Assembly (NCBI RefSeq): GCF_005298075.1
Contig: NZ_SZZH01000003.1
Coordinates: 744,001 to 808,000, forward strand
Source: Nakamurella flava
GTDB taxonomy: Bacteria; Actinomycetota; Actinomycetes; Mycobacteriales; Nakamurellaceae
Direction: 5' to 3'
DNA: 64,000 bases
The notes beneath the pieces are model-generated. The model saw only the letters and a list, made by a program, of their open reading frames with translations. It was not told the DNA's origin and made no database searches. This document shows, piece after piece, positions 45,746-64,000 of this stretch (position 1 is its first letter; each line of letters begins with the position of its first letter). A program made the translations under genes and the position numbers.

Positions 45746-46762
45746 ATGACGTCCTCGTTCTCGCACATCCTGGTCACCGGTGGTGCCGGGTTCATCGGCT
45801 CCACCTTCGTCCGCCGGGTGTTGACCGATGCCTACCCGGAGCTGGCCGGATCCCGGGTCACCGTGCTGGACAAGCTGACCTACGCCGGCAACGAGGCGAA
45901 TCTGGCCGAAGTGGCCGGCTCCGATCGCTACACCTTCGTCCAGGGCGACATCTGCGACGCCGAGCTGGTCGCCGAGCTGGTCGGTCAGGTCGACGCGGTC
46001 GTCCACTTCGCGGCCGAATCGCACGTCGACCGGTCGATCATGGGCGGCGCCGACTTCGTCCTCACCAACGTGCTGGGGACGCAGACCCTGCTGCAGGCCG
46101 CCCTGCACAGCCCGATCAAGAAGTTCGTCCACGTCTCCACCGACGAGGTGTACGGCTCGATCGAGGAGGGATCCTGGACCGAGAGCTGGCCGCTGGAACC
46201 GAATTCCCCGTACTCGGCGTCCAAGGCGTCCTCGGATCTCATCGCCCGGGCCTACGCCCGCACCCACGGCGTGCCGGTCTGCATCACCCGCTGCTCCAAC
46301 AACTACGGGCCGTACCAGTTCCCGGAGAAGGTCATCCCGCTCTTCGTCACCAACCTGATGGACGGGTTGACGGTCCCGCTGTACGGCAAGGGCGCGCAGA
46401 TCCGGGACTGGCTGCACGTCGACGACCACTGCCGCGGTATCGCCCTGGTGCTGGCCGGGGGGCGGATCGGCGAGATCTACAACATCGGCGGCGGCACGGA
46501 GCTCACCAACGCCGAACTGACCGACAAGCTCATCGAGGCGACCGGCCGGGACTCCTCCTTCATCGAGCGGATCGTCGATCCGCGGGGTGGCGGCCACGAC
46601 CAGCGCTACTCCGTCGACATCTCCAAGATCCGCGAGGAACTGGGCTACACCCCGCAGGTGCCGTTCGACCAGGGGCTGGCCGACACCGTCGCCTGGTACC
46701 GGGACAACCGGACCTGGTGGGAGCCGTTGAAGAACGCGAAGGCGCAGGTCGGGGCGCAGTAG
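45746..46762 (+). CDS. rfbB: dTDP-glucose 4,6-dehydratase
   Basis: A 338-residue short-chain dehydrogenase-type enzyme, step 2 of dTDP-L-rhamnose synthesis. It has ILVTGGAGFIGSTFVRRVL (NAD loop), the AAESHVDRSI motif, HVSTDEVYG with the catalytic TDE of this enzyme, PYSASKASSDLIARAY (catalytic YxxxK), CSNNYGPYQFPEKVIPLFVT and DWLHVDDHCRGI. The start at 45746 is placed just before the NAD domain; an in-frame start at 45701 is possible. rfbD follows after one intervening gene. rfbA and rfbC are not in the window. Confidence 0.95.
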   Translation: MTSSFSHILVTGGAGFIGSTFVRRVLTDAYPELAGSRVTVLDKLTYAGNEANLAEVAGSDRYTFVQGDICDAELVAELVGQVDAVVHFAAESHVDRSIMGGADFVLTNVLGTQTLLQAALHSPIKKFVHVSTDEVYGSIEEGSWTESWPLEPNSPYSASKASSDLIARAYARTHGVPVCITRCSNNYGPYQFPEKVIPLFVTNLMDGLTVPLYGKGAQIRDWLHVDDHCRGIALVLAGGRIGEIYNIGGGTELTNAELTDKLIEATGRDSSFIERIVDPRGGGHDQRYSVDISKIREELGYTPQVPFDQGLADTVAWYRDNRTWWEPLKNAKAQVGAQ

Positions 46763-47580: not shown

Positions 47581-48504
47581 GTGACGTCTGTGTTGATCAC
47601 CGGTGCCCATGGCCAGGTCGGATCCGAGCTGGCCGCGGCCGCCCACGCCCGCGGATGGGCGGTCACCGCGCTCGGGTCGGCCGACCTGGACATCACCGAC
47701 GCCGCCGCGGTGGACGCGGCCGTCACCGCCTTCTCCCAGGACTCCGCCTCCGACCCGGACACGGGCGCCCGCAACCGGGCGGTGATCATCAACGCCGCGG
47801 CCCACACCGCGGTCGACCTGGCCGAGACCGACCAGGAACGGGCGTACGCCGTCAACGAGCGGGGTCCCGGTCTGCTGGCCGCGGCCGCGAGCCGCCATGA
47901 CGTGCACCTCGTGCATCTGTCCACCGACTACGTCTTCCCGGGCTCGGCGGACCGGCCCTACGAGCCGACCGACGCGACCGGCCCGCGCAGCGTCTACGGT
48001 GCCTCGAAGCTGGCGGGGGAGCGGGCCGTCCACGCCGCCGACCCGACCGCCGTCGTGGTGCGGACGGCGTGGGTGTGGGGCGCGACCGGCGGCAACTTCG
48101 TCAAGACGATGGCCGCGCTCGAGCGCAGCCGGCCGACCGTCGACGTGGTGGACGACCAGCGCGGCACGCCGTCCTACGCCGCCGACCTCGCGGCGGGTCT
48201 GCTGGAACTCGCCGACTCGGCGTGGTTGGCCGACGCGGCGGCATCCGGTCGGGTCCTGCACCTGACCAACGCCGGGGAGACGACCTGGTTCGGCTTCGCC
48301 CGGGCGATCTTCGCCGCTCTGGGGGCCGACCCGGAGCGGGTCCGCCCGACCACCTCGGCGGCCTTCGTGCGACCGGCTCCGCGGCCGGCGTACTCGGTGC
48401 TCTCCGGGCAGGCGTGGGCGGCGGCCGGACTGGCTCCGCTGCGACCGTGGGACGAGGCCCTGGCCGCCGGGATCACCGATCATCCGGGGGCCTTCGCGGG
48501 CTGA
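47581..48504 (+). CDS. rfbD: dTDP-4-dehydrorhamnose reductase
   Basis: A 307-residue enzyme for the last step of dTDP-L-rhamnose synthesis. It has VLITGAHGQVGSELAAAAHA (NADPH loop), DLDITDAAAVDAAV, IINAAAHTAVDLAETDQERA, HLSTDYVFPGSADRPY, SVYGASKLAGERAV (YxxxK), RTAWVWG and VVDDQRGTPSYAADLAAGLLEL. The GTG start lies 9 bp after the deacetylase stop. With rfbB it shows that the cell makes rhamnose for a surface polymer. Confidence 0.94.
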   Translation: MTSVLITGAHGQVGSELAAAAHARGWAVTALGSADLDITDAAAVDAAVTAFSQDSASDPDTGARNRAVIINAAAHTAVDLAETDQERAYAVNERGPGLLAAAASRHDVHLVHLSTDYVFPGSADRPYEPTDATGPRSVYGASKLAGERAVHAADPTAVVVRTAWVWGATGGNFVKTMAALERSRPTVDVVDDQRGTPSYAADLAAGLLELADSAWLADAAASGRVLHLTNAGETTWFGFARAIFAALGADPERVRPTTSAAFVRPAPRPAYSVLSGQAWAAAGLAPLRPWDEALAAGITDHPGAFAG

Positions 48505-50066: not shown

Positions 50067-51197
50067 TCAGCGCGACCGTCGGTCCCGCCGCCGGTCGACG
50101 GCGTGGTGGTAGGCCCGCTCGGCGGCCGCGGCGGTCCGCGACGGGGTGAACGTCCGGGCCTGGGCGACCCGGCTGTCCCGGTCCGGGGTCTGCCCGCGCA
50201 GCGTCGCGGCGATGGTCGCGGTCAGGGCCTCGGCGTCCCCCACCGGGAACCGCAGGGCGGCGTCGCCGGTGACCTCCCGCAGTGCTGGGATGTCGCTGAC
50301 GATCACCGGGACGCCCGCGGCCAGCGCCTCCGTGGCCGGCATCCCGAACCCCTCGTCCAGACTGGGCAGCACCAGGGCCTGCGCCCCGGCCACCAGCCGG
50401 ACCACGTCGTCCTGGGGGAGATAGCCGGGGCTGACGACTCCGTCCGGCACGGTCGACGTCGGATCGGCGCCCCACCCACCGGCGCCGATGACCAGCAGCG
50501 CGGGGGCCTCCGGATCTCGACGACGCAGCTCGGCGTGCGCCGCCAACAGGGTCGGCAGGTCCTTGCGGGGTTCCCGGGTGCCGACGAACACCAGGTAACG
50601 CTCCGGCAGACCGATCCGGGCCCGCAGTGCGGCATCCGCCGGCTCGGCGGTGAACCACTCCGGTCCGACGGCGTTCGGGGTGACGAACACGTCGGCCGGG
50701 TCGACCCCGAAGACGTCGACCACCTGGTCCCGGACGGCGCCGGTCACGGTGCAGATGGCGGCCGCCCGGCGCAGCGTCGGCGGCAGACGGGTGGCCAGGT
50801 CGACCGCCGCGGGATTCATGGTCTGCGGGTGGGTGTGGAACGCCAGGTCGTGCACCGTCACGACCAGGGCGGTCCGCCACATCGGCGGGGCCAGGAAGTT
50901 CGTGGCGTGGAAGACGTCAGCCCGGCCGCACAGCAGCTCCAGCGGTGGTTCCAGTCCCAGGCGCCGGGCGGCCAGCACGATGCGACCCGGGACCCGGGTA
51001 CGGCGCAGCGGCGCCCCCGGCGGCAGCTCCGGCAGCACCAGGGGATCGGCCCCGCGGGCCAGCCCGGCCGCCGCCACGTCCACGTCGCCCCGGCGGGCCA
51101 ATTCGGCCAGCAGGCCGTGCGTGTACCGGCCGATGCCCGTGCGCGGGCCGATCAGCGGGGTGCCGTCGATCAGCACCGTCGGTCGTGGGGTCGGCAT
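50067..51197 (-). CDS. Glycosyltransferase family 4
   Basis: A 376-residue GT-B glycosyltransferase. The N-terminal domain has VLIDGTPLIGPRTGIGRYTHGLLAEL and VTVHDLAFHTHPQ; the C-terminal one has YLVFVGTREPRKDLPTLLAAH, DDVVRLVAGAQALVLPSLDEGFGMPATEALAAGVPVIVSD (EGFGMP with the EX7E motif). Relatives are mannosyl- or rhamnosyltransferases acting in the cytoplasm on lipid-linked sugars. It is divergent from the secreted FG-GAP protein gene and convergent with the M15-like peptidase. Confidence 0.92.
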   Translation of the reverse strand: MPTPRPTVLIDGTPLIGPRTGIGRYTHGLLAELARRGDVDVAAAGLARGADPLVLPELPPGAPLRRTRVPGRIVLAARRLGLEPPLELLCGRADVFHATNFLAPPMWRTALVVTVHDLAFHTHPQTMNPAAVDLATRLPPTLRRAAAICTVTGAVRDQVVDVFGVDPADVFVTPNAVGPEWFTAEPADAALRARIGLPERYLVFVGTREPRKDLPTLLAAHAELRRRDPEAPALLVIGAGGWGADPTSTVPDGVVSPGYLPQDDVVRLVAGAQALVLPSLDEGFGMPATEALAAGVPVIVSDIPALREVTGDAALRFPVGDAEALTATIAATLRGQTPDRDSRVAQARTFTPSRTAAAAERAYHHAVDRRRDRRSR

Positions 51198-51465: not shown

Positions 51466-53670
51466 ATGACCTCGACATTCCCGGGATCCCCCCTGCCGTC
51501 GTCCCGTCGACGGCTACGCAAAGTGACGCAGGCCGTGTTGATCCCCCTTCTGGTGACGGCCGTCGTCGCCGGTTCGCTGACCGTGGTCGATCGGTGGGTC
51601 GCGGGCCAGGACACCGTGTCGGCGGGCGCGACGACGACGTTGACGGAGGTCGGCAGCCCGTTCGCGGCCCGTGCCCTGCTGCCGTTCGGCGGATCGCGTC
51701 TGGACTCGGGGGCGACCGGAGAGCAGTGGTCCTCGGCTGCGGTGGCCGACGTCAACGGATCCGGCACTCCGGAGGTCATCGTCGGCGGCGGGGTGAGCAG
51801 CAGCCTGCAGGTGTTCGGTCTGGACGGGTCGAGCCAGGCCCTGGTCGACGTGGGCGGTGTGAACGCTGGCGCCCGGTCGGGCGGGGTGCAGCCCAGCCCG
51901 GTCATCGCGGACGTCAACGGCGACGGGGTGTCCGACGTCGTGACCGGATCGACGGCCAACGTGCTGGCGGCCTACTCGTTCCGGGGCAACGACACCCGCC
52001 GGCTGTGGAGCCGTCAGGACCCGCCCATCGTGGCGAACGGTCCGACCGGGTTCCTGGCCACGCCCGCGCTGGGCTACCTGCAGGGTGATCAGCCGTCGGT
52101 GGTCACGGCGAGCTGGGGGCAGGCGCTCGGTGCCAACAACGCCCGGACCGGCGCCGGACTGTCCGGGTGGCCGAAATGGCTGAAGGACTCCATCTGGTCG
52201 TCCCCGGCCATCGGCGACATCGACGGCGACGGCGCGGTCGACGTCGTGGTCGGCGGCGACTGTGCCGGCAACGACATCGGCACCCAGCCCTGCGGCAACG
52301 TCGGCGGCGGGTACGTCTGGGCGTTCAACCGGGACGGCACCCCCAAGTGGAACTGGTTCCTGCGGGGGCAGGTCATCTGGTCCTCACCCGCGCTGGGCGA
52401 CCTGAACGGCGACGGGGCGTTGGACGTCGTGGTCGGCACCGGCGGCTACTGGGGCGAGCCGGCCGGCCGGGTCATCACCGCACTGAACGGCCGCAACGGC
52501 AACGTGCTGTGGCAGACCGCCACCCCGGCCCGCGTCGTCGGTTCCCCCTCGCTGGCCGACGTGACGGGGGACGGTCGGCCCGACGTGTTCGTCGTCTCCT
52601 ACGGCGGCTGGATGCTGTCCTACGACGGTGCGACGGGCGCCGAACGGTGGCGCAGGTGCATCACCGACGGGGGCAACTGCGGCAACCCGGCCATCGGCAC
52701 GAAGACCGGCGTCGCGCTGGCCGACATCGACAACGACGGCCGCATCGAGGCGGTCACCCACGGCGAACAGCAGCTGACGGTCGTCGACGCCGCCAGCGGG
52801 GATCTGGAGGCCAAGCGGGGGTCGTCGTGGGGCGGGACCGTCTACGCCCCGGCCAACACGCCGACGATCGCCCAGGTCAACGGGCAGACCTACATCTTCC
52901 AGCCGCTGTTCGGCCGCAAGAACGGTCAGGATCTGCTGGTCGTCGAGGCTTGGCGCACCGGAAAGCCGCTGGGTGCGGCACCGTGGCCGACCGCCCGGGG
53001 CGACCAGCAGCGGACGGGCCGGATCGCCACGGCGACACCCGACCGGAGCGCGACCGAGGCGTTCGTCAGCCGGGTCTACCGGGACTTCCTGAGCCGGTCG
53101 CCCAGCGGGTCCGAGCTGAGCGCGTGGAGCGACCGGGTCCAGCGGGGGCAGGTGTCGCGCTACGAACTGGCGACCACGCTGTCCCAGTCCCCGGAATGGA
53201 TCTCCACCGTGATCACCCGGTTCTACCGGGACACCCTGCGCCGGGAACCGGACGCCTCCGGGCTGGCCGGCTGGGTGCGCGCCGCGCAGTCGGGCATGCC
53301 GGTCGCCCAGATCGCGGCGGCGTTCTACGCCTCACCCGAGTACTTCCAGAACGTCGGGCGGTCCGACAACCAGACCTGGGTCCGTGATCTCTACCGCAAG
53401 CTCCTGCTGCGGGAACCGGACCAGGGGGGCGTGGACGGCTGGGTCCGGGCGCTGCAGGCGGGCATGGGCCGCGACACCCTTGCGTTCGGTTTCTACCAGG
53501 CCCAGGAGACGGTGCAGGTGCGGATCGACCGCCTCTATCGCACCCTGCTCGGCCGGCCGGCCGACGACGGGGCGATCCGTTCGTGGTCCGGGTTCGTACG
53601 GGACAACGGCGACCTGTCGCTGGCCGCCGCGCTGGCGGCGTCGAACGAGTACTACCAGCGGCGGTCGTGA
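51466..53670 (+). CDS. Secreted FG-GAP/VCBS beta-propeller protein with DUF4214 repeats
   Basis: A 734-residue protein. A basic start and one hydrophobic helix (~19-45) act as signal or membrane anchor. Residues ~80-500 contain FG-GAP/VCBS calcium-binding-like repeats (VADVNGSGTPEVIVGGG, IADVNGDGVSDVVTG, IGDIDGDGAVDVVVGGD, LGDLNGDGALDVVVGTG, LADVTGDGRPDVFVVSYGG), the pattern of an integrin-like propeller. Residues ~526-732 are DUF4214 units (FVSRVYRDFLSRSPSGSEL, RFYRDTLRREPDASGLAGWV, LYRKLLLREPDQGGVDGWV, LYRTLLGRPADDGAI). It is probably a surface protein. The same DUF4214 module occurs in the methyltransferase at 58114-59100. A strong terminator follows. Confidence 0.9.
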   Translation: MTSTFPGSPLPSSRRRLRKVTQAVLIPLLVTAVVAGSLTVVDRWVAGQDTVSAGATTTLTEVGSPFAARALLPFGGSRLDSGATGEQWSSAAVADVNGSGTPEVIVGGGVSSSLQVFGLDGSSQALVDVGGVNAGARSGGVQPSPVIADVNGDGVSDVVTGSTANVLAAYSFRGNDTRRLWSRQDPPIVANGPTGFLATPALGYLQGDQPSVVTASWGQALGANNARTGAGLSGWPKWLKDSIWSSPAIGDIDGDGAVDVVVGGDCAGNDIGTQPCGNVGGGYVWAFNRDGTPKWNWFLRGQVIWSSPALGDLNGDGALDVVVGTGGYWGEPAGRVITALNGRNGNVLWQTATPARVVGSPSLADVTGDGRPDVFVVSYGGWMLSYDGATGAERWRRCITDGGNCGNPAIGTKTGVALADIDNDGRIEAVTHGEQQLTVVDAASGDLEAKRGSSWGGTVYAPANTPTIAQVNGQTYIFQPLFGRKNGQDLLVVEAWRTGKPLGAAPWPTARGDQQRTGRIATATPDRSATEAFVSRVYRDFLSRSPSGSELSAWSDRVQRGQVSRYELATTLSQSPEWISTVITRFYRDTLRREPDASGLAGWVRAAQSGMPVAQIAAAFYASPEYFQNVGRSDNQTWVRDLYRKLLLREPDQGGVDGWVRALQAGMGRDTLAFGFYQAQETVQVRIDRLYRTLLGRPADDGAIRSWSGFVRDNGDLSLAAALAASNEYYQRRS

Positions 53671-53700
53671 CCCGGCGCTGACCTCGGTCCGGCAACGAGG

Positions 53701-53729
53701 CGGCCCCGGAACCGTCGGTTCCGGGGCCG
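53701..53729. terminator. Perfect 13-bp hairpin between convergent genes
   Basis: CGGCCCCGGAACC at 53701-53713 is followed by GTC and its exact complement at 53717-53729. The stem lies 30 bp after the FG-GAP gene stop and 15 bp from the end of the convergent GT2 gene. It should terminate transcripts from both sides, although it lacks a U-tract. Confidence 0.85.
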
Positions 53730-53744
53730 TGATCATGAACGGGT

Positions 53745-54836
53745 CTAGCGCCGGGCGGGTTCCCGGTCGGAATCGGCCGACAGGTGCTCGTGGGCGTGTG
53801 CGGCCTGCGGGGTCGGCAGCACCTGCGTCCGGCCGCCGGCGGTGACCGACGTGCGGGCCGGGGCCGAGTAGCCGAGGTAGACGAGTCGGGCCGACTCGCG
53901 TCGGCTGCGGGTGATGCCGTCGAGGATGAACCCGATGGTCACGATGAGCACGGCGATGACGACCATCGACGCGGCCAGGAAGGCGGTCGGGAAGCGGGGG
54001 ACCAGGCCCGTCTCGGCGTACTCGACCAGCAGGGGGATCGAGAGGAGCAGGGCGATCACGGCGACGATCAACCCGAGCAGGCCGTGGAAGGCCAGCGGCC
54101 GCTCGTGCCGGATCAGCTGGAAGATCAGCGACAGGATCTTGTAACCGTCCCGGTAGGTGTTGAGCTTGCTCTCGCTGCCCTCGGGGCGGTCCTTGAAGTC
54201 GACCTCGAACTCGGTCTGCGGCACGCGCAGGCTCATCGAGTGGACGGTCAGCTCGGTCTCGATCTCGAACTCACGGGAGACCGCCGGGAACGACTTGACG
54301 AAGCGACGGGAGAAGATCCGGTACCCGCTGAGCATGTCGGTGACCGGGGTGCCGAACACCTTCGTGACCAGCTTGTTGAACATCTTGTTGCCGGCCGAGT
54401 GACCCGGCCGGTAGGCCGACTCGGTGGTCTGCTTGCGCACCCCGAGCACGTGGTCGTACGGACCGGACAGCAGCGTCTCGATCATCCGCGGAGCGGCCGA
54501 CGCGTCGTAGGTGTCGTCCCCGTCGATGAGCAGGTAGACGTCGGCCTCGATGTCGGCGAAGGCGCGGCGCACCACGTTGCCCTTGCCCTTGACCTCCTCG
54601 CGCCGCACGATGGCCCCGGCCTGCAGGGCGACCTCGACGGTGCGGTCGGTGCTCCGGTTGTCGTAGACGTAGATGTCCATGCCGGGGACGGCGGCGCGCA
54701 GATCGCGGACCACCTGCCCGACGGCGGCCTCCTCGTTGTGACACGGCACGATCGCGGCGATGCGCAGATCGCCGAACCGTGCGGTGTTCGACGAGGACGA
54801 AGCGGGTGTCACGGGGGCGGGATCGAGGCCGGTCAC
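53745..54836 (-). CDS. GtrB/DPM1-like glycosyltransferase family 2
   Basis: About 363 residues. The GT2 domain (~20-240) has IAAIVPCHNEEAAVGQVV, YVYDNRSTDRTVEVA, VKGKGNVVRRAF and LLIDGDDTYDASAAP (DGDDTY metal site). The C-terminal part has two membrane helices (~250-272 and ~288-312). This is the layout of GtrB and dolichyl-phosphate-sugar synthases, which charge polyprenyl phosphate with a hexose on the inner face. A GtrA-type flippase is encoded at 32997-33551. The GTG at 54836 starts just after the upstream esterase stop; an earlier ATG at 54899 would overlap it. Confidence 0.9.
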   Translation of the reverse strand: MTGLDPAPVTPASSSSNTARFGDLRIAAIVPCHNEEAAVGQVVRDLRAAVPGMDIYVYDNRSTDRTVEVALQAGAIVRREEVKGKGNVVRRAFADIEADVYLLIDGDDTYDASAAPRMIETLLSGPYDHVLGVRKQTTESAYRPGHSAGNKMFNKLVTKVFGTPVTDMLSGYRIFSRRFVKSFPAVSREFEIETELTVHSMSLRVPQTEFEVDFKDRPEGSESKLNTYRDGYKILSLIFQLIRHERPLAFHGLLGLIVAVIALLLSIPLLVEYAETGLVPRFPTAFLAASMVVIAVLIVTIGFILDGITRSRRESARLVYLGYSAPARTSVTAGGRTQVLPTPQAAHAHEHLSADSDREPARR

Positions 54837-54859
54837 GACCGGCGACGCTACCAGCCGGG

Positions 54860-56158
54860 TCAGCTCGCGGCAGTGATGCCGAGCCGTCCGTAGAGCCACG
54901 GCAACACGTGAGCCAGGCCGCCGGTGACGGTGTCCCAGGCGTGACCCGTCCCCGGGTTGGTGTACAGCTGGACGTTCATCCCCGCCTTCTGCGCCGCGGC
55001 CAGCAACTGCGGCTGCACCGGCCCGAAGATCGGGTCCTCGCTACCGGCGACGAACCAGCCCGCGACGTTCGGATACTGCTTCGACGCCATCAGGTCGAGC
55101 GGGTTGACGGCTTTGTACTTCGCCGCGTCTCCGCCGAACGCCGTATTGATGGTGTCCTGCATGGACCCGCCGGTGGAGGGGTTGAGCTCCCCGGCGAACG
55201 CGAGGAACGTCGGGTAGATGTCGGGATGGTTGGTGGCCATCTGCAGCGAACAGGTCGCGCCGGCCGAGAAGCCGCCGATCGCCCAGTGCTGGTGGTCGGT
55301 CTGGGCGAGCAGCTGCGCGTTGATCGCGGCCGGCACGTCCACCGACAGGTAGGTGTCGACGTTGCCGAGCGACGAGTTGAAGCAACCCGGGTTGGCGGTG
55401 GCGTCGCCCAGGATGTCCGGGACGACGACGATCGGCGCGATGCCCTTGTTCTTGGCGGCCATCGGGTCCATGACCTGCTGCAGCCGGTCCCCGAGGAACC
55501 AGTCCCCGGGGCTGCCGGGTTGACCGGCCAGCAGCACCAGCACCGGGAGCCGCTGTGGATTGGTGGCTTCGTAGGCCGGCGGGTAGTAGACCTGCGCCTC
55601 GCGGGCCTTGAAGCCGGACACCGTGCCGGGGATGGTCATGGGGCTGACCCGCCCGTTGGCGGAGATGTTGCCCTCCGGGGTCCAGACGCTCTCCAGCGGT
55701 CCGGCGGGCAACTCGCCGACGGTCGTCGGCACCGGCGGCGGTCCGTCGATCAGGTATTCGCTCTGCGCGCCGAGCACGTCGCCCAGGGTCGGGTACTGCA
55801 CGTAGGTGCGGTTGATCTGGTTGGCCGCGGCCGCGATGACCAGCACGGCGGCGAGCAGGGTGACCAGTGGTTGCCACCAGGTCACCCGCACGCAGCGGCC
55901 GATGCCGATGACGATCGCGGCGACGATCACGCCCAGCCAGACGTAGTCGGAGGTGTTCTCCAGCTTCTGGCCGATGACGGCCTCGGCGAACAGGGTGCCC
56001 AGGGCCCAGGCGACCACGGCGGAGACCACCACGGCGACCGGGACGAACCAGATCCACCACCAGCGTTCGCGGCGGGCCAGCAGGAACGCCGCCCCGACGA
56101 CGCCCAGCACCAGCAGCAGCGTGGGCAGCCAGCCGTCCTGCAAGGACACCCCGGTCAT
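54860..56158 (-). CDS. Membrane-anchored esterase (antigen 85/esterase D fold)
   Basis: A 432-residue protein. Four hydrophobic helices (~10-115) are followed by an external alpha/beta hydrolase of the esterase PHB/antigen-85 type. GGFSAGATCS carries the nucleophile Ser (~296), AGSEDPIFG the likely Asp and NPGTGHAWDTV the catalytic His; VLVLLAGQPGSPGDWFLGDR precedes the oxyanion region. Homologues with this membrane-plus-esterase layout are uncharacterised; the enzyme may add or remove acyl groups on surface glycans. GGGGGAC precedes the ATG. It lies between the GT2 and GT-C-like genes on the same strand. Confidence 0.87.
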   Translation of the reverse strand: MTGVSLQDGWLPTLLLVLGVVGAAFLLARRERWWWIWFVPVAVVVSAVVAWALGTLFAEAVIGQKLENTSDYVWLGVIVAAIVIGIGRCVRVTWWQPLVTLLAAVLVIAAAANQINRTYVQYPTLGDVLGAQSEYLIDGPPPVPTTVGELPAGPLESVWTPEGNISANGRVSPMTIPGTVSGFKAREAQVYYPPAYEATNPQRLPVLVLLAGQPGSPGDWFLGDRLQQVMDPMAAKNKGIAPIVVVPDILGDATANPGCFNSSLGNVDTYLSVDVPAAINAQLLAQTDHQHWAIGGFSAGATCSLQMATNHPDIYPTFLAFAGELNPSTGGSMQDTINTAFGGDAAKYKAVNPLDLMASKQYPNVAGWFVAGSEDPIFGPVQPQLLAAAQKAGMNVQLYTNPGTGHAWDTVTGGLAHVLPWLYGRLGITAAS

Positions 56159-56245
56159 CCGTCCCCCGTCACGTCTTCCGAACTCCGTTGTTCCGGGCCA
56201 CGCCCGTCGGGCGGTCCGGGTCCGCACCCGAGGGTGCGGCCGCGC

Positions 56246-57856
56246 TCACCGCCCGCCGGTGTACTCCAGCACGCGGCAGGTCTTCTGCTGGGGCGACCCC
56301 AACTGCGGGGTCGGTCCCGGAACCGGGCAGGTCTGCCCGGTGAACTGCCAGCCCGGCTCGGTCCAGTAGTCCAGGTAGGTGGTGCAGAAGCTGTCGGTCT
56401 CGTTCACACACATCGCCCGGGGAGGAGTACCGGAGGCCAGGTCGGCCTGGAACCGCTCCTTGTAGGCATCCGGGTCGCCCCCACTCTTGAAGCCGGTGAC
56501 GAAGTGCGACTCCCGGCCGTCCTCCAGGGTCTCCCACAACAGCGGCCACATGTCCCAGTAGTAGCCGGACAGGAAGCTGATGTCGTTCGATCGGGCGAAG
56601 TCGCCGGCGGCCCGGATGTCCTGCAGGACGACCGAGTCGCTGGGCGGCGTCAGCGGGCCGACGAGTGAAGCGGCCGCGGCCACCACCGCCCCGACCGCGA
56701 CGACGGGCTGCCGGACCGCGGCGGCGACCGGGACGCGAGCGGTCAGCAGCGCCCCGGCGATCGGGGCGGCCAGGAACAGCACGACGGCGATGAGGACCGG
56801 GAAGAAGTACCGCACCGGGTAGCCGTTCAGCGACACCCACGGATTGCCGGCGAAGACGGTGAAGTAGCCCAGGGAGAACAGCACCACGAGGGCGAACCGG
56901 GGGAGCAGCGCCGCCCGGCGCTCGGCCGGCAGCAGCAGGGCGGCCAGGGCGGCGACGGCGCCCAGCACCATGAGCCGGCTCGGGGACAGCGCCCCGGTGA
57001 CGGACCCGACGGCCTGCGGGAACTCGGCGACGAACTGGCCGCGGCTGAAGGAGAAGTAGTCCTGCGGGGCGTCCGGGATGGGGCCGGCGTTGCCGCCGAG
57101 TCGGCTGGAGAGGAACTGCCACACGGCGAACCAGGCCACCCACATGACGCCGAAGGCCGGCCACCGCAGCCACTGGCGCCGACGGAACATCTCGATGATC
57201 GCGAGGAACGCGGCGACGGTCAGCACCGACGGATTGAGGCCCATCGCCACCCCGGCGCACGCCGCGGCCAGCGCCCACGCCCACCAGACCGATCGCTTCC
57301 ACAGCAGGAACGCGCCCAGGGTCAGCAGCCAGGACATCGAGTACGGCTGGCTCTCCAACGAGATGATGTGCAGCTTCGACGGCACGATGATCACGTTCGC
57401 GGTGGCGGCCGTCAGGACCCACAGCACGTACACCGCGGGCCAGCGGAACTCACCGGTGAGCGCCCGGACGCCCATGACCGCGATGACCAGCAGCATCCCG
57501 TAGAAGCACAGCGAGTTGATCAGCAGACAGACGAACAGGTTGACCGCGGGATCGGAGAAGGGACTGGCCAGGAACGAGACCACCGCGGCGAACCGGTTCT
57601 GGCCCCAGTAGAAGAGGTCGACGTTCTGGATCGACATGATCGACTGCTGGACGCCGTCGGCCTGCAGGTAGGGCGCGGTGTAGCGGAAGATCGTCACCAC
57701 GGCCAGGACGACGAGCGTGAGGGCGAAGACGACAGCGCCCCCGATGCGGCTCGCGCCGCCCCGGCGGGCGGGGGCCGGCTCCGCGGGGACGGTGCTGGTC
57801 GTCCCCTCCGCCGTCGAGGGGTCACCCGGTGCTGCGGAGTACGGTCTCGCGGTCAC
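56246..57856 (-). CDS. Multi-spanning membrane protein, GT-C glycosyltransferase-like
   Basis: A ~536-residue integral membrane protein with about ten to twelve helices: after a polar Thr/Pro-rich start, IGGAVVFALTLVVLAVVTIF, VNLFVCLLINSLCFYGMLLV, WALAAACAGVAMG and others. A C-terminal extracytoplasmic segment of ~110 residues contains three cysteines (AMCVNETDSFC, QTCPVPG). The pattern resembles GT-C fold transferases or DUF6056-type proteins that use polyprenyl-phosphate sugars on the outside, but the signature acidic loop is not clear to me. The GTG start at 57856 follows AAAGGGAAG. With GtrB-like and GtrA genes it could complete a lipid-linked sugar transfer system. Confidence 0.65.
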   Translation of the reverse strand: MTARPYSAAPGDPSTAEGTTSTVPAEPAPARRGGASRIGGAVVFALTLVVLAVVTIFRYTAPYLQADGVQQSIMSIQNVDLFYWGQNRFAAVVSFLASPFSDPAVNLFVCLLINSLCFYGMLLVIAVMGVRALTGEFRWPAVYVLWVLTAATANVIIVPSKLHIISLESQPYSMSWLLTLGAFLLWKRSVWWAWALAAACAGVAMGLNPSVLTVAAFLAIIEMFRRRQWLRWPAFGVMWVAWFAVWQFLSSRLGGNAGPIPDAPQDYFSFSRGQFVAEFPQAVGSVTGALSPSRLMVLGAVAALAALLLPAERRAALLPRFALVVLFSLGYFTVFAGNPWVSLNGYPVRYFFPVLIAVVLFLAAPIAGALLTARVPVAAAVRQPVVAVGAVVAAAASLVGPLTPPSDSVVLQDIRAAGDFARSNDISFLSGYYWDMWPLLWETLEDGRESHFVTGFKSGGDPDAYKERFQADLASGTPPRAMCVNETDSFCTTYLDYWTEPGWQFTGQTCPVPGPTPQLGSPQQKTCRVLEYTGGR

Positions 57857-58113
57857 TACTTCCCTTTCGCCGTGGCCGTGCCGCCACCCGGACGTGGTCG
57901 AGAGTCCTCCCACCAGGTGCGACGGCTTCGCTACTGTAGCGAGGCTCGTCCCCCGATCCGGGAGCGTCGGAGCGGGTCGGACGGCCGACCGTCGGCAACG
58001 GACTTGCCCGGTACGGCGGCCGTCGCATCCACGCGACGTCCGTGGACGCGCGACGCTCACGAGCGTTGCTCAGCCGTCTCCAAGCCCCGTGGCCGGGGCG
58101 GGCGGGGCAGCGG

Positions 58114-59100
58114 TCAGCGGCGGAACCGGCCGAGACCGGACTCGACCCGTCGCCGCATCCTGCTGAGCGCGCCCGGCGTCGGCCGGCAGAGGTAGGCGAG
58201 CAGGTAGGAGCGCTCGATGTCGTCGTACAGACCGGCGTTGGTGCTGATCTCGTCCGCGTCGAAGACCCCCGTCGTGGCCGACTCGGGCAGCCAGGCGATG
58301 CCCTGGGCCCGGACGACGGACAGGCCGTGCCGATCGAAGAGCGCCACCATCTGCGGGTGCGTGTACTCGATCTTGTGGTCGGGGTTGATGAACTCCGCGT
58401 CCTGATCGGCCAGTTCGACGGCCGTCAGGGCCCGGTTGGGGGTGTCCAACGCGAGCAGGCCGGTGGGCTTGAGCACCCGACGGACCTCGGCGAGCACCTG
58501 CTCACCCTCGTGCGGGTGAATGTGCTCGAACGTCTGGCTGGAGTTGACCAGGTCGACCGACGCATCCGGGATGGCCGACAGGTCGGTCATCGAGGCGTGC
58601 ACGTACCGCACCGGCCCGAGCTCGGTGTCGACGTGGTCGGGCCAGCGTTCGCTGCGGAACTCCTCGTGCCGCTCGTCCGGCGGGAGATCGATGATGGTCA
58701 GGCTGTCGAAGTCGTACGGGTAGCCCATCTCGATGAGCGCCCCGCGGGGGCTGCTGGTCGAAGCCCCGCCCAGGTCGACGATCGTCCCCGCCCGGGGCAG
58801 GCTCCGGGTCCAGGCCAGTCGGGCCGCGTGCAGCGCCGCCAGCGGGGACTGCCGGCGGGACCGGAACTCCGAGGAGTCCCGGATCTCCCAGACGATGTCC
58901 CGCCGGGTCGCCCCGGCGGCCAGCCGCTTGCGGAAATGCGCGAGCCCGCCGGCGTCCGGGGCCCGGTCGAGCAGGACGCGGTAGGCCACGGTCAGGAAGA
59001 CGTCCTCGGGCAGCTGCTCGGGGTCGCCGGCGTCGACGGCCGCCGTCACCGCGTCGTCAGCGGACAGGAGTGCCTCGCGCGACTGCACCGGGATCGACAT
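58114..59100 (-). CDS. DUF4214-methyltransferase fusion
   Basis: A 328-residue cytoplasmic protein. Residues ~31-82 are a DUF4214-like unit (VFLTVAYRVLLDRAPDAGGL and AHFRKRLAAGATRRDI), as in the secreted protein at 51466. Residues ~105-290 are a SAM-dependent methyltransferase: IVDLGGASTSS (motif I, variant), SQTFEHIHPHEGEQVLAEV and VLKPTGLLALDTPNR. It lies 83 bp upstream-side of Wzt on the same strand, where E. coli O8/O9a loci carry the chain-terminating methyltransferase WbdD. A capping or sugar-methylation role is inferred. There is no kinase domain as in WbdD. Confidence 0.82.
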   Translation of the reverse strand: MSIPVQSREALLSADDAVTAAVDAGDPEQLPEDVFLTVAYRVLLDRAPDAGGLAHFRKRLAAGATRRDIVWEIRDSSEFRSRRQSPLAALHAARLAWTRSLPRAGTIVDLGGASTSSPRGALIEMGYPYDFDSLTIIDLPPDERHEEFRSERWPDHVDTELGPVRYVHASMTDLSAIPDASVDLVNSSQTFEHIHPHEGEQVLAEVRRVLKPTGLLALDTPNRALTAVELADQDAEFINPDHKIEYTHPQMVALFDRHGLSVVRAQGIAWLPESATTGVFDADEISTNAGLYDDIERSYLLAYLCRPTPGALSRMRRRVESGLGRFRR

Positions 59101-59182: not shown

Positions 59183-60385
59183 TCAGGACGACAGCAACTC
59201 CGTGTCGATGTTGAGGAACCCGACACCTCGGCCGGAGGCGTGAACGGTGAGCGATGCCGCGCCCGGCAACCGGTGCAGTTCGACCCCGCCGTCGCGGGCG
59301 AAGGCCGCGTGCACGGTGTACTGACCCTCGCCGAGCCACACCTGCGGCAGCCGGAACGTGTGCCGGGACGGCCCGGACAGCGGCGGCAGTCGTCGCCCCA
59401 TCAGCTTGGTGTTGGTGCCGTAGACGACCTGGCCGAGGGGGCTGTCGATACCGATGCCCAGCACCGGGTCCTCGACCCGGCCGTCGACGTCGACGTCGAC
59501 GTCGATGACCAGCGGATCGCCCGGTTCGATGACGCTGATCCGTCGCCCGTCGTCGCCGCTGACGGTGACACCGACGATCCGGGCGGCACTCGGCGGCTCG
59601 CTGTCGCCGACGGCCTCCCGCTGCTTTTCCATGTCCTCCTGGCGCATGACCTCGAAGTCGGCGCGCAGATGCCGGAGGGCGTCGACCGGTGGGCCGTCGA
59701 CCTGGATGCGGCCGTTTTCGAGCACCACGGCCCGGTCGCAGATGTCGGCCACGGTGTCCAGGGCGTGGGTGACCAGGACGATGGTGCGTCCCTCGGCCTG
59801 GAACCGGCGAATCCGGTCCATGCACTTGCGCTGGAACGGTTCGTCGCCGACGGCCAACACCTCGTCGACCAGCAGCACGTCCGGGTCGACGTGCACCGAG
59901 ACGGCGAACGCGAGCCGGACGTACATGCCGGACGAGTAGAACTTCACCTGGGTGTCGATGAACGGCTCGATGCCGGAGAACGCGACGATCGCGTCGAAGA
60001 ACTGGGCGGTCTGCTTCCGCGACAGCCCGAGGATGGCGGCGTTGAGGAAGACGTTCTCCCGGCCGGTGAGGTCGGGGTGGAAACCGGCGCCGAGTTCCAG
60101 CAGGGCGGCCAGCCGCCCGCGGTGCTCGACGGTGCCGCTGGTCGGCTGGAGGATCCCGCCGATCAGCTTGAGCAGAGTCGACTTGCCCGACCCGTTCGGG
60201 CCGATGAGCCCGACGGTGGTGCCGCCGTGGATGTCGAGGTCGATGTCCCGCAGGGCCCAGAAGTCGTCCTTGTGCTGGTTCGACCGGCCGAAGTTGACCA
60301 GCCGCTCCTTCAGCGACTTCTCCTTGCGGATGACGAAACGCTTGCTGGCGTCGCGGACGCGGATCACGCTCACCGAGTCGGTCAT
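59183..60385 (-). CDS. wzt: Polysaccharide ABC exporter ATPase (Wzt-like, with glycan-binding tail)
   Basis: A 400-residue ATPase. The ABC domain (~1-245) has LIGPNGSGKSTLLKLIGG (Walker A), PTSGTVEHRGRLAALLELGA, FHPDLTGRENVFLNAAILG, YSSGMYVRLAFAVS (signature variant of this family) and DVLLVDEVLAVGDE (Walker B). Residues ~270-395 form a beta-sandwich-type tail (VYGTNTKLMGRRLPPLSG, YTVHAAFARDGG) like Wzt-C, which in E. coli O8/O9a recognises the modified end of the finished glycan. The permease gene is 3 bp upstream. It energises export of a lipid-linked polysaccharide. Confidence 0.92.
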   Translation of the reverse strand: MTDSVSVIRVRDASKRFVIRKEKSLKERLVNFGRSNQHKDDFWALRDIDLDIHGGTTVGLIGPNGSGKSTLLKLIGGILQPTSGTVEHRGRLAALLELGAGFHPDLTGRENVFLNAAILGLSRKQTAQFFDAIVAFSGIEPFIDTQVKFYSSGMYVRLAFAVSVHVDPDVLLVDEVLAVGDEPFQRKCMDRIRRFQAEGRTIVLVTHALDTVADICDRAVVLENGRIQVDGPPVDALRHLRADFEVMRQEDMEKQREAVGDSEPPSAARIVGVTVSGDDGRRISVIEPGDPLVIDVDVDVDGRVEDPVLGIGIDSPLGQVVYGTNTKLMGRRLPPLSGPSRHTFRLPQVWLGEGQYTVHAAFARDGGVELHRLPGAASLTVHASGRGVGFLNIDTELLSS

Positions 60386-60388
60386 GGT

Positions 60389-61324
60389 CTACAGCTCCTG
60401 CGCGAAGTTGTTCTGCATCCGGGCGAAGACCCGCTGGCAGAGCCACAGGATCGGAATGCCGATGAGGAAGGCGATGACGGCCCGCAGCCCCAGGTCGCTC
60501 GGCTGGGGGAGACCGGCGCCGGCCACCCAGATGCCGCGCTGGAAGCACAGCACGGCCAGGGTGACCGGGTTGGCCAGGTAGATCTGGTTGAGCAGCTCGG
60601 AGGACAGGGCGTTCTGGACGAAGCTCCAGCGGTAGACGATCGGGGACAGCCAGAAGCCGACCATCAGGCCGACCTCGACCAGGTACGCCACGTCCCGCAG
60701 GTAGACGTTGATCGCCGACAGCAGGAACGCGATGGCGGTGGCGTAGACCAGCAACACCGCGGTGCCCAGCACGACGTAGCCGATACCGGCCAAGGACGGG
60801 GGGCTCCCGGCGAGGAGGGTGGCGACCAGCAGGATGAACAACTGGATGACGAAGTTGAAGAGTGCGGAGCCGATGACCGAGAGCGGGAACACCTCGCGCG
60901 GCAGGTAGATCTTCTTGACCAAACCGCCGTTGGCCACGATCGACCCGGTGCCGGAGGAGATGACCTCACTGAACAGGGCCCAGGCGGTGAGGCCGGTGTA
61001 GATGTAGATCGCGAATTCGGGAGTGTCGCGCTCGGCACCCAGGAACTTGCCGATCGCGATGTAGTAGACGAGCAGCTGGGTCAATGGCCGGATGAGCGAC
61101 CAGACGAATCCCAGCGCGCTGTCCTTATACCGGGACTTGAGCTCCCGCTTGACCAGCAGGTCGAGCAGCTCGCGGTACCGCCAGACCCCACGGACGGAGT
61201 CGACGGTGCCGCTCACGAAACCCGAGACCGGCCCGGAGGGCACGAGGGGCTGAGCGGCCAGGGCCTGGTTACGGGCCTCGCGGCTCGCCTCGAGGGACGA
61301 CCGCCCCTTGCTGGGCTCAGTCAC
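60389..61324 (-). CDS. wzm: Polysaccharide ABC exporter permease (Wzm-like)
   Basis: A 311-residue ABC-2 type permease with six helices. LLVKRELKSRYKDSALGFVW (the cytoplasmic start typical of Wzm/TagG), IRPLTQLLVYYIAIGKFLG, VKKIYLPREVFPLSVIGSAL and a last helix FLIGIPILWLCQRVFARM are seen. A ~45-residue polar start precedes the core. It pairs with Wzt immediately downstream, and its start overlaps the end of the glycosyltransferase gene by eight bases. It exports a teichoic-acid or O-antigen-like polymer on a polyprenyl or other lipid carrier. Confidence 0.93.
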   Translation of the reverse strand: MTEPSKGRSSLEASREARNQALAAQPLVPSGPVSGFVSGTVDSVRGVWRYRELLDLLVKRELKSRYKDSALGFVWSLIRPLTQLLVYYIAIGKFLGAERDTPEFAIYIYTGLTAWALFSEVISSGTGSIVANGGLVKKIYLPREVFPLSVIGSALFNFVIQLFILLVATLLAGSPPSLAGIGYVVLGTAVLLVYATAIAFLLSAINVYLRDVAYLVEVGLMVGFWLSPIVYRWSFVQNALSSELLNQIYLANPVTLAVLCFQRGIWVAGAGLPQPSDLGLRAVIAFLIGIPILWLCQRVFARMQNNFAQEL

Positions 61325-62936
61325 CGGCCGCCGCCACCGAGGTCGCCGCCGTCGTCGGATCCGCGGCGGGTCGCGGTGCGGCCAGCTCGCGCCAGGTCTG
61401 TGCTGCGTAGTCGTCCCAGGTCGTCACCGACACCTGACGCGCCTCCTGCCTCAGTCGTTCCCACTCCGCGTCATCCGTCAGGAGCGTACGCATGGCGTTC
61501 GCCACATCGTGGTCGTCGTAGGGGTCCACCAGCAGGGCTCCGCCCTCGGTCACGATCTCGGCCATCGACCCGAACCGCGACGTGATGACCGGGGTACCGG
61601 ACAGGATCGACTCGACCACGGGCAGCCCGTAGCCCTCGTTGACCGACGGGAACACACTGAACCGCGCCAGCCGGTACGCGCTCCAGAGCAGAGCGTCGTC
61701 GGCCTTGGACACGATCTCGATGGGGCGGCCCAGCTGCTGGAGCCAGTTCAGTGCCTGGTCGAACCGGGCGCTGTTCCAGGCCCGGCCACCGATCATGGTC
61801 AAGGTGAACCGGTGGCCTTCGCGCCACAGCAGTTCGGCGGCGTGCAGGACGGCCAGGTGGTTCTTGCGGGGCTCGTGCGTGCCGACGACCAGCACCATCG
61901 GCACGCCGGGGACCAGCAGCCGGTCACTGGACGCCTCGAGCTGCTCGTCGGTCACCGACCCGACCTCGTTGGGCAGTACGCACGGCACTACCCGGGGCCC
62001 GGGCAGACCGATGCCGTTGAGCATGCGCACCCACCCGGCGTATTCCACGGCCGCGGACTTGGAGATCGTGGCGACGGCGTCGGCGTAGCGCATCGCCGCG
62101 AGGTTGCGGGCGAACGCCCCGGGCATGGCCCCGTGCGTCGTCTCCGGGACGGTGATCGGCACCATGTCGTACCCGATCATGGTGAACCGGTTGCCCGAGT
62201 ACTCGGCCAGGCAGCGCAGGGTGTCGGTGCGTTCGGTCTCGGTGGCCAGTTCGGGCAGCACGACGGTGGAGTCCAGCGGCACCAGGACCGGTCCGGGCTT
62301 GCGCTCGGCGGCCGGGACCGGCGGCCCGCCGAAACAGGCGCGGTGCGCCTCAGCCGGCGTCAGCGACCGCAACGCGGACAGGTCCTCGTGCCAGCCGATG
62401 AGCTCGATGTCGTGGGTCTGGGCCCAGCGCCGGGTGGTCTCCCGGGTGACCCGCTGGATACCGGTGGCGAAACCGGCCTCCGCGGTGTGGTGCACGTCGA
62501 CGACCACCGCGTCGCGCACCACCCTGACCGCACGGAACGGGCCGTGGTGCAGCAGCCGCTCCATCGGTCCGGCGGCCAGCGCGAGGCGCAGCCCGGCGAC
62601 CGGGCCGTCGGTCTGGGTGTAGCGGACGGCGGTCCGGACGTCCTCGGCCAGCGGCAACCGGGCGCGCAGTACCGCGAGCATCACCCAGGCCTGCCGGTGG
62701 GTCATCCCGACCAGGCCGTCGACCAGGACGCCGAGCGCGGTGGTGACGGTCGACTTGTCGTCTCCGGTGGGGACCGGCGGGAGGTCGAGGGCTTCGACCA
62801 GCGTCCGCAGCCGGGCGGCCAGGGCCGATCGTCGGGCCGCGCCGTGCGCGGTCACGTCGTGCACCAGCTGGTCCAGGGTGGGCCGCTGGTCACGGCGGGC
62901 GAGGCGGGAGCGACCCGCGAGGTCACGAAGCCGCAT
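61317..62936 (-). CDS. Large glycosyltransferase with GT4 domain
   Basis: A 539-residue protein. The first ~150 residues are helical with no known domain; then a GT-B fold: VVVDVHHTAEAGFATGIQRVTRE, VPLDSTVVLPELATETERTD, VMVLVVGTHEPRKNHLAVLHAAELL, FSVFPSVNEGYGLPVVESILSGTPVITSR (EGYGLP, EX7E). It probably elongates the exported polysaccharide. It overlaps both neighbours (14 bp with the upstream glycosyltransferase, 8 bp with Wzm), so all are one operon. Its C-terminal half is clearly a paralogue of the next gene upstream (shared HEPRKNHLAVLHAAELLW-like and EGYGLPV blocks). Confidence 0.9.
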   Translation of the reverse strand: MRLRDLAGRSRLARRDQRPTLDQLVHDVTAHGAARRSALAARLRTLVEALDLPPVPTGDDKSTVTTALGVLVDGLVGMTHRQAWVMLAVLRARLPLAEDVRTAVRYTQTDGPVAGLRLALAAGPMERLLHHGPFRAVRVVRDAVVVDVHHTAEAGFATGIQRVTRETTRRWAQTHDIELIGWHEDLSALRSLTPAEAHRACFGGPPVPAAERKPGPVLVPLDSTVVLPELATETERTDTLRCLAEYSGNRFTMIGYDMVPITVPETTHGAMPGAFARNLAAMRYADAVATISKSAAVEYAGWVRMLNGIGLPGPRVVPCVLPNEVGSVTDEQLEASSDRLLVPGVPMVLVVGTHEPRKNHLAVLHAAELLWREGHRFTLTMIGGRAWNSARFDQALNWLQQLGRPIEIVSKADDALLWSAYRLARFSVFPSVNEGYGLPVVESILSGTPVITSRFGSMAEIVTEGGALLVDPYDDHDVANAMRTLLTDDAEWERLRQEARQVSVTTWDDYAAQTWRELAAPRPAADPTTAATSVAAAGD

Positions 62937-64000
62937 GATGTCCAGTTCCGTTCCGGGTGGCGGCCGTCAGGGCCGGCTCGACGAGCCCGGCCCACAGCTC
63001 GTCGGCGTAGTCCTGCCAGGTGCGTTCGGTGCGGGCCGCGATGGCGGCGCGGAGTTCCGCGACCGCGCCGTCGTCGGTCAGCAAGGTCCGCATGGCGTCG
63101 GTGATCGAGGCGTCGTCCCGCGGGTCGACGGTCAGGGCCCCGCCGTCCGCGGCGATCTCGGCGGTGGAACCGTAGTTCGTGGTGATCACCGGGGTTCCCA
63201 GCGCCATCGACTCGGCCACCGGCAACCCGTAACCCTCGTGGATGGACGGGAACATGGTGAACCGGGCCTCGGCGACCGCCCGGCGCAGTTCGTCCTCGGG
63301 GACCGACGTCCGCACCTCGACGGCGCGCCCCCGCCCGGCGAGGGTCTTGGCCCGGCGGAAGAACTCCTTGTTCGAGCCGCCGCCGCCGATGAAGGTCAGA
63401 CCGAAGTCCAGGCCCTCCTGCCACAGCAGCTCGGCGGCGTGCAGCACGGCCAGATGGTTCTTGCGGGTGTCGTGGCTGCCGACGATGACGATCTGTGGCC
63501 GGTCCGTGTGGGCCGCCGGTGACCCGGCGGGTGGGGCCGGAGGGTGTTCGGCGTTCAACTCGACCGGCAGGGAGACGGCGACCACCTCGGGCCCGGTCAG
63601 CCCCTGGGTGGGCAGCATGGCGGCGAACGCGGCGAACTCGTCGGCCGCGGCCCGGCTGATGCCGGCGACCCGGTCCGCGAACTTGACGGCCGCGAGGTAG
63701 GGCATGAACTTGGTGGGTTCCTCGATGCCGACCGTGTCGGCCGACACCAGCGGGATCATGTCGTAGCCGACGGCGACGACGGAGGTGTTGCTGCACGCCC
63801 CGATGGCGGCGATCCGCTCGACGGCCTCGCGGGGCGGGACCTCGGGGAGCACCAGGACGCACCGCCACGGCACCACGGTGGTGGACTCGGCCGGCGGGAG
63901 AGCGTCCAGTTCGCGCAGTCCACTGCGCCGCCGCTCGGCGACGACCTTCTCGTGCGCCACCCAGTCGTAGATGCGGGTCGATTCCGTCGGATCGAGTCGT
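62923..64000 (-). CDS. Glycosyltransferase, 5' end outside window
   Basis: The frame stays open to the last base, so the N terminus lies beyond 64000 (codons before 63960 read RLDPTESTRIYDW). The visible 359 residues are a GT4-type C-terminal region: VAVGYDMIPLVSADTVG, VIVGSHDTRKNHLAVLHAAE, LTFIGGGGSNKEFFRRAK, FTMFPSIHEGYGLPVAESMA and LGTPVITTNYGSTAEIAADGG. The EGYGLP/EX7E nucleotide-sugar site is intact. It resembles the downstream 539-residue enzyme closely enough to suggest duplication. It is the first gene seen of the Wzm/Wzt operon, which continues past the window. Confidence 0.92.
   Translation of the reverse strand, partial: RLDPTESTRIYDWVAHEKVVAERRRSGLRELDALPPAESTTVVPWRCVLVLPEVPPREAVERIAAIGACSNTSVVAVGYDMIPLVSADTVGIEEPTKFMPYLAAVKFADRVAGISRAAADEFAAFAAMLPTQGLTGPEVVAVSLPVELNAEHPPAPPAGSPAAHTDRPQIVIVGSHDTRKNHLAVLHAAELLWQEGLDFGLTFIGGGGSNKEFFRRAKTLAGRGRAVEVRTSVPEDELRRAVAEARFTMFPSIHEGYGLPVAESMALGTPVITTNYGSTAEIAADGGALTVDPRDDASITDAMRTLLTDDGAVAELRAAIAARTERTWQDYADELWAGLVEPALTAATRNGTGHHAAS

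Follow-up and report, generated by a model that had tools for sequence, protein, structure and literature searches.

A four-unit DUF4214 module as a candidate polysaccharide clamp on a secreted propeller protein encoded in a Wzm/Wzt glycan locus of Nakamurella flava

The window analysed here, a stretch of 64,000 nucleotides from Nakamurella flava (contig NZ_SZZH01000003.1, positions 744,001 to 808,000), carries two genes with the domain DUF4214, one encoding a secreted FG-GAP propeller protein and the other a methyltransferase. A preliminary description placed both genes in a glycan locus, and the gene map agrees with it: a Wzt with the carbohydrate-binding domain Wzt_C, a Wzm-like permease, three GT4 glycosyltransferases, a GT2 glycosyltransferase, an RmlB-like dehydratase and RmlD are all present. 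The features are given below in window coordinates, with lengths in amino acids (aa) and, where noted, bit scores or expectation values (E).

51466..53670, + strand: secreted FG-GAP propeller protein with a C-terminal four-unit DUF4214 module, 734 aa (Pfam; unit profile)
51502..51592, + strand: candidate export signal, SRRRLRK ahead of a hydrophobic stretch (identified by eye in the translation)
51721..52755, approximate limits, + strand: FG-GAP beta-propeller repeats (PF13517, PF01839)
53047..53202, + strand: DUF4214 unit 1 of the propeller protein (57 bits)
53206..53346, + strand: DUF4214 unit 2 of the propeller protein (55 bits)
53338..53514, + strand: DUF4214 unit 3 of the propeller protein, the longest match (68 bits; best Pfam stretch at aa 617-684)
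53524..53655, + strand: DUF4214 unit 4 of the propeller protein, the weakest (33 bits; helices in the AlphaFold model)
58114..59100, - strand: DUF4214-methyltransferase fusion, 328 aa (Pfam; no signal peptide apparent by eye)
58861..59007, - strand: single DUF4214 unit of the methyltransferase (Pfam; unit profile)
58312..58863, - strand: class I methyltransferase domain (PF08241, PF13489)
59183..60385, - strand: Wzt, ABC ATPase with Wzt_C carbohydrate-binding domain (PF14524 at E 1.1e-22, PF00005)
60389..61324, - strand: Wzm-like ABC-2 permease (PF01061)
61317..62936, - strand: GT4 glycosyltransferase that stays beside wzm in related loci (Pfam; locus comparison)
62923..63960, - strand: GT4 glycosyltransferase, second of the pair (PF00534)
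50067..51197, - strand: GT4 glycosyltransferase (PF00534)
53745..54899, - strand: GT2 glycosyltransferase, AglJ-like, under the NCBIfam cut-off (Pfam/NCBIfam)
45746..46762, + strand: RmlB-like dehydratase (PF16363)
47581..48504, + strand: RmlD (PF04321 at E 2.2e-98)

Inspection of the propeller protein with Pfam returned DUF4214 at E 4.4e-29 in three stretches, FG-GAP_3 at E 1.5e-22 and FG-GAP at 1.4e-16. A profile built from the units of the host order found four units (aa 528-579, 581-627, 625-683 and 687-730, at 57, 55, 68 and 33 bits, respectively), and an AlphaFold model of the C-terminal 216 aa forms a single confident all-helical body (predicted local distance difference test score, pLDDT, 94.5; predicted template modelling score, pTM, 0.87) made up of what we count as four three-helix units. 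Because the order-built profile and the model each give four, the "about four" units described previously become exactly four. The N-terminal SRRRLRK is presumably a twin-arginine translocation (Tat)-like motif. The methyltransferase gene, 4.4 kb away, opens with one unit as had been described (Pfam DUF4214 at aa 32-81, E 3.7e-9, then Methyltransf_11 at E 8e-12). At 100.8 bits for the propeller protein and 37.0 bits for the methyltransferase, both pass the 23.2-bit gathering cut-off of PF13946 (DUF4214), and they are the only two genes to match that family at E <=0.001 in the genome (4,843,278 bases, 13 contigs).

DUF4214 is present in several bacterial groups, and Pfam assigns it no function. 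Surface anchoring by the domain has already been suspected in segmented filamentous bacteria (available text of PMC12780176), as has a role as surface-protein anchor elsewhere in print (PMC11970703, likewise in part), and the accessible passages of PMC6034559 and PMC12165300 name it and give no function. We found no paper in the open-licence literature that gives DUF4214 a glycan ligand or names the Caulobacter surface-layer (S-layer) protein RsaA as a relative.

Inspection of related proteins reveals that fifteen carry four unit matches, some of them weak, with the array C-terminal in 12; another domain comes after the array in G182 and G100. Secretion was judged by eye, and the G099 protein has lost its start at the contig end. 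Pfam was run on ten of sixteen secreted proteins (the fifteen plus one of G011 with fewer units), and separately on the window's protein and one of G182. A partner domain was found in nine of these ten (FG-GAP, subtilisin, Amidase_2, SpoIID, GH25 or transglycosylase), and the G011 protein gave no further Pfam match. An Iamia plasmid encodes an M23 peptidase fused to three DUF4214 units. That is to say, the arrays have what an anchor module would be expected to have, a tandem module on varied secreted enzymes (as judged by eye) and linkage to polymer export genes, and by analogy the fusions appear to follow the wall-anchor pattern in which CWB2 modules are distributed. CWB2 repeats of Clostridioides difficile anchor varied secreted proteins to polysaccharide II (PSII), a polymer to which the authors assign a putative biosynthesis locus (available text of PMC4973711). 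The propeller module resembles them as a tandem repeat of varied secreted proteins and, putatively, in holding them on a polymer with a locus of its own; the CWB2 system differs in having three repeats and binding shown for CWB2 itself, and the propeller protein has no CWB2 Pfam match. SLH domains, associated with secondary cell wall polymers (excerpts of PMC12175726), are likewise a tandem non-covalent wall anchor, but comprise three units, and no SLH Pfam match occurs in the propeller protein.

No signal peptide is apparent in proteins with one unit before a methyltransferase (window genome, G017 and six genomes of family f14) or in those of G007, G016 and G139 with two units before a helical-looking tail. 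The two-unit helical-tail proteins (L006:1117-2202, L005:1003-2115 and L031:547-2196) lie 7-17 kb from Wzt_C.

To place the module in its genomic context, the distribution of DUF4214 was compared with that of Wzt_C. Genomes with DUF4214 number 5 of 17 in the host family, 21 of 298 in the host order and 4 of 325 in a sample of the class. Since the class sample yields a single DUF4214 genome outside the order, with the match in a 74-residue frame, the association with Wzt_C is drawn from the order. Wzt_C itself is present in 75 of 298 order genomes and 39 of 325 in the class sample, and within the order it accompanies 13 of the 21 DUF4214 genomes versus 62 of the 277 others (Fisher p 2e-4). The preliminary description had suggested that a DUF4214 profile be checked for co-occurrence with Wzm/Wzt loci, and in the order the association is strong: 14 of the 16 genes that could be judged are found no more than 31 kb from a Wzt_C gene, a limit chosen after the distances were known, against 0.21 expected at that distance, and 10 lie within 10 kb. 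This count covers 16 of the 27 DUF4214 genes, namely those of Wzt_C genomes on usable contigs. Set aside were one gene each of G020 and G099, which lie on tiny contigs, and nine genes from eight genomes without Wzt_C; a weak second G139 gene, matched by the order-built profile alone, is uncounted. The tiny contigs hold the array gene and then a GT4 relative in G099, and the array gene with an rmlD relative upstream in G020.

The linked genomes number 9 of 11 and span five genera and three families. One conserved Wzm/Wzt core is common to them, with a Wzt 62-69% identical to that of the window in seven and 60% in G017. For G000, G060, G080 and G163, which have two or three DUF4214 genes each, all genes found sit in this one region. 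Two adjacent DUF4214 genes occur in G182, which is without Wzt_C.

Structural relatives of the module were sought with its AlphaFold model. Foldseek returned mainly phycobilisome linkers, with the lipopolysaccharide-bound RsaA N-terminal domain (NTD) at rank 9 (E 0.089). By VIA-align the linkers reach Z <=11.7 and the RsaA NTD reaches Z 5.3 over 117 residues across the whole model, with the next other chain at 3.6; among the chains listed, the RsaA NTD is the only non-phycobilisome one over background, although a Z of 5 by itself is insufficient for a helical protein. Phycobilisome linkers bind and join phycobiliproteins, and their domain (PF00427) is like the module in sequence (E 7e-19) and fold (Z 11.7) and differs in its wholly other context. 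Their closeness on both counts favors an explanation in which DUF4214 is a protein-protein module, with the array docking the propeller protein on a surface protein and the single unit docking the methyltransferase on a glycosyltransferase complex; a lone unit in an enzyme also makes more sense as a docking element than as a clamp on a polymer. We regard this explanation as distinctly unlikely, because arrays on unrelated wall enzymes in glycan-export loci point to a shared glycan more readily than to a shared protein, and we know of no shared protein partner for such arrays. Moreover, the other solved relative, the RsaA NTD, binds polysaccharide (available text of PMC6978808).

Two further observations arose from these searches. 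DUF4214 arrays, represented by the module at 53020-53667, and linker domains are clearly related in sequence, a finding relevant to how phycobilisome linkers arose, and no paper naming both was found in the open-licence literature. Predicted viral structures resembling the module come mostly from DUF4214 proteins encoded by phages and giant viruses, including one that bears the name glycosyltransferase (Terrestrivirus).

The RsaA NTD is the S-layer anchor of Caulobacter (PDB 6T72) and, in the accessible part of PMC6978808, was solved with bound O-antigen, binding along a polysaccharide that bears a 3-O-methylglucose branch, with calcium at loop 77-100. Because the module's sequence profile reaches the linkers and not RsaA, an RsaA_NTD alignment was built from RsaA and nine Caulobacter relatives. 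Its hhalign score against DUF4214 is higher than that of every one of 150 column-shuffled decoys and of 149 of 150 block-shuffled ones (with a single-unit profile, 150 and 148, respectively), and the reversed alignment scores as noise. We then searched an RsaA_NTD hidden Markov model (HMM) against 3,097 open frames from the gene neighborhoods compared, 59 of them DUF4214 frames; the set includes overlapping loci of one genome (L082-L111), with L103 and L104 the same gene. DUF4214 proteins take the first 19 places and the 24th among the top 25, and the best reversed frame scores 2.5 bits versus 18.8. At 3 bits or more, 27 of the 29 matched stretches overlie DUF4214 units, some spanning two tandem units in register. 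A reversed RsaA_NTD profile places three DUF4214 proteins within its top 19, and profiles from each half of the RsaA set place a DUF4214 protein first and four within the top 5. When whole sequences are scored with the DUF4214 unit profile, three of ten RsaA-family members top all 300 shuffles. The RsaA_NTD profile retrieves DUF4214 above its controls, as would be expected within one superfamily, and the two families are likely homologous, if distantly. The propeller protein has no match to PF19198, the Pfam family of the RsaA NTD, at E <=1, and a tblastn search of plasmids with the RsaA domain gave no match.

The likeness extends to gene context. In addition to tandem helical units, a distant sequence relation and, in the search from the module's model, fold similarity over that whole model, the RsaA NTD shares with the DUF4214 module its fusion to FG-GAP and protease domains and its encoding beside sugar genes. 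One Caulobacter genome encodes six RsaA_NTD proteins. In two of them, one an FG-GAP protein and the other a serralysin-type M10 protease (L115:1507-2151 and L112:1351-1989), the domain is C-terminal, which extends the O-antigen clamp beyond the S-layer protein. Lying 3' of rsaA are type I secretion genes, a GDP-mannose dehydratase, a DegT-type aminotransferase, two GT4 genes and an outer-membrane efflux gene. The RsaA NTD differs from the module in its Gram-negative setting and adjoining type I secretion genes, and in that the two Pfam families do not recognize each other. A Pseudomonas plasmid combines type I secretion, gmd, a glycosyltransferase, an S-layer-like DUF4214 protein, an ABC-2 permease and a DUF4214 plus DUF3616 protein. 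A cytoplasmic location for its protein L073:22679-24457 was considered and dropped, as its own sequence and the adjoining type I secretion genes suggest an S-layer-like secreted protein; the neighboring gene at 24584 encodes the ABC-2 permease (26% identity to the window Wzm), which has no adjoining Wzt-like match on the plasmid. As judged from gene content, the window locus, Caulobacter rsaA and this plasmid each co-encode a putatively anchored protein with surface-glycan genes.

Taken together, we favor, with a probability of roughly 0.65, an explanation in which the four-unit DUF4214 module clamps onto the polysaccharide that its own locus produces. The four units would form one helical module that holds the propeller protein non-covalently on the polysaccharide made and exported by the locus, a hold comparable to that of RsaA on O-antigen or of SLH or CWB2 repeats on cell-wall polymers. 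Glycan binding by the module, and the identity of that glycan as the product of the locus, are both inferred. As to the ligand of the secreted copy, a polymer repeat is more probable than the lipid-linked sugar that had been suggested, because the characterized relative RsaA binds along polysaccharide.

A number of observations pull the other way. On the side of linkage, 8 of the 21 DUF4214 genomes are without Wzt_C, G005 and G011 carry DUF4214 and Wzt_C on separate contigs, and DUF4214 is missing from 62 of the 75 genomes with Wzt_C. The nine linked genomes are not independent, as they share a single Wzm/Wzt core. Among 133 genomes of the Caulobacter class, DUF4214 occurs in one, without Wzt_C, and Wzt_C in 12. 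On the side of homology, the nearest solved sequence relatives of the module are phycobilisome linkers (ApcE, E 7e-19), and the module profile misses RsaA at E <=5. The probability that hhalign itself assigns to RsaA_NTD versus DUF4214 is 4.4%, PF19198 and PF13946 show no cross-match in Pfam, and 64 of 300 shuffles score as high as RsaA against the DUF4214 unit profile. Six genomes or records, among them overlapping loci, account for the top 19 of the RsaA_NTD search. In the same search the window methyltransferase ranks 84th and the propeller protein 161st, at noise level, so that the window's own proteins are linked to RsaA only transitively, through the family. A fold search from the model of an RsaA relative (pLDDT 79) returned RsaA alone, with no phycobilisome linker listed.

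The single shared core and the many Wzt_C genomes without DUF4214 are also what would be seen if the Wzm/Wzt region were a variable surface-gene island in which the array merely hitchhikes, the module binding peptidoglycan or a polymer unrelated to the locus; peptidoglycan is, moreover, the target of many of the fused domains. This alternative is unlikely in our view, given that every DUF4214 gene found in G000, G060, G080 and G163 falls in this region and that the module's family is probably a distant homolog of a glycan-specific clamp whose gene adjoins sugar genes. As a separate observation on the Caulobacter class, G608 has 38 DUF4214 matches across its main contig (L082-L111) and is without Wzt_C.

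Whether a clamp on the locus polysaccharide could also account for the methyltransferase copy was judged from the DUF4214 units themselves. Ranked by score, the nearest units to that of the methyltransferase are those of three f14 methyltransferases (40-42% identity). A secreted G060 unit is fourth (41%) and one of G080 eighth, and the four units of the propeller protein rank 68, 70, 80 and 137 of 156 (21-33% identity). A tree of 85 of the 157 ranked units, with those of G608 omitted, is poorly resolved (46 columns; 47 of 82 inner branches unresolved) and keeps cytoplasmic and secreted units largely apart: its 14 cytoplasmic units need two changes, versus a shuffled mean of 13, and none of 500 shuffles is as low. 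Sequence comparison therefore suggests that the methyltransferase unit belongs to a different, mainly cytoplasmic branch.

At E <1e-20 this methyltransferase is confined to two of the 298 order genomes, the window genome and G017, each with a DUF4214 unit. A methyltransferase fusion and a secreted array occur together in 1 of 21 DUF4214 genomes, the window's own; no secreted array was found in G017, and seven Wzt_C genomes have a four-match array without this methyltransferase. Methyltransferases with an N-terminal DUF4214 and an extra C-terminal part are found in six f14 genomes (for example L046:18119-19618, L018:175-1773 and L023:265-1707), none of which has Wzt_C. Pfam was run on the G017 protein and three of the six f14 proteins, and the remaining f14 ones were assigned by similarity. 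In G041 the fusion neighbors NCBIfam matches MSMEG_0565 (a GT4, 7 kb away), 0567, 0568 and 0569 and a nitrilase, with no export gene among the neighbors scanned, and in G050 and G183 the same MSMEG_0565-type GT4 family lies 7 kb from the fusion. As far as scanned, the f14 fusions thus appear to lie near a glycosyltransferase and outside a glycan-export locus.

The position of the gene invites comparison with WbdD-type terminal methyltransferases. The WbdD of E. coli O8 is a simple methyltransferase, and in O9a terminated chains are recognized by the carbohydrate-binding module of Wzt (available text of PMC3482155). As with WbdD, the window gene adjoins a wzt with Wzt_C. Unlike WbdD-type enzymes, the window protein has no kinase domain found by Pfam, and its presence does not track Wzt_C similarity as would be expected if the latter followed the terminator: the window Wzt_C is 53% identical to that of methyltransferase-free G060 and 36% identical to that of methyltransferase-bearing G017. 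Because the Wzt_C is closer to a genome without this methyltransferase, the candidate role of cap enzyme whose mark this Wzt_C reads is unsupported, and for want of covariation it was rejected.

These results bear on the common small ligand that the preliminary description proposed for the two proteins. In that explanation both copies would read the same ligand, such as a methylated chain end or a lipid-linked sugar, before and after export. It draws on the finding of only two DUF4214 genes in the genome, 4.4 kb apart, on the position of the methyltransferase directly beside wzt together with the recognition of terminated chains by the E. coli Wzt module (PMC3482155, in part), and on the 3-O-methylglucose branch of the glycan bound by the RsaA NTD (PMC6978808, in part). 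The copies nonetheless lie on different branches, co-presence is confined to 1 of 21 genomes, array and methyltransferase each occur without the other in G017 and the seven Wzt_C genomes, the Wzt_C comparison runs against it, and the six f14 fusions exist without Wzt_C. We consequently judge the shared ligand very improbable and rejected it as the leading reading on the basis of unit ranking, unit tree, distribution and Wzt_C comparison. The proposal that DUF4214 is a glycan-recognition module fares better, in that it is supported for the secreted copy by Wzm/Wzt linkage, wall-enzyme fusions and distant RsaA homology, and unsupported where it has the methyltransferase copy share the ligand. 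For the latter copy the likeliest role, suggested with low confidence, is simply to place the enzyme at the growing polymer or at a partner enzyme.

A polysaccharide clamp on the propeller protein would tie DUF4214 to a domain with a solved polysaccharide complex and to a defined export locus, making it a testable wall anchor with a predicted ligand, the polymer of the same locus. If true, it would account for the wall placement of the amidases, SpoIID proteins and lysozymes that bear the module and would offer a new tag for protein display on such cells. More speculatively still, DUF4214 arrays and RsaA_NTD with its relatives might constitute one surface-polysaccharide clamp superfamily, in which export loci of high-GC bacteria and proteobacteria encode their own docking proteins, such as propellers, wall hydrolases and S-layer proteins, and single cytoplasmic units grip the same polymer prior to export.

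Two neighbors in the window complete the map. The 604 aa product of 56246-58060, between the esterase and methyltransferase genes, is apparently a membrane protein with zero Pfam or NCBIfam matches and is perhaps a polytopic glycosyltransferase. Beside the propeller gene, 48888-50036 encodes an apparently secreted M15 carboxypeptidase with a C-terminal DUF7910 match, possibly a further wall enzyme of the locus with a sugar-binding tail.

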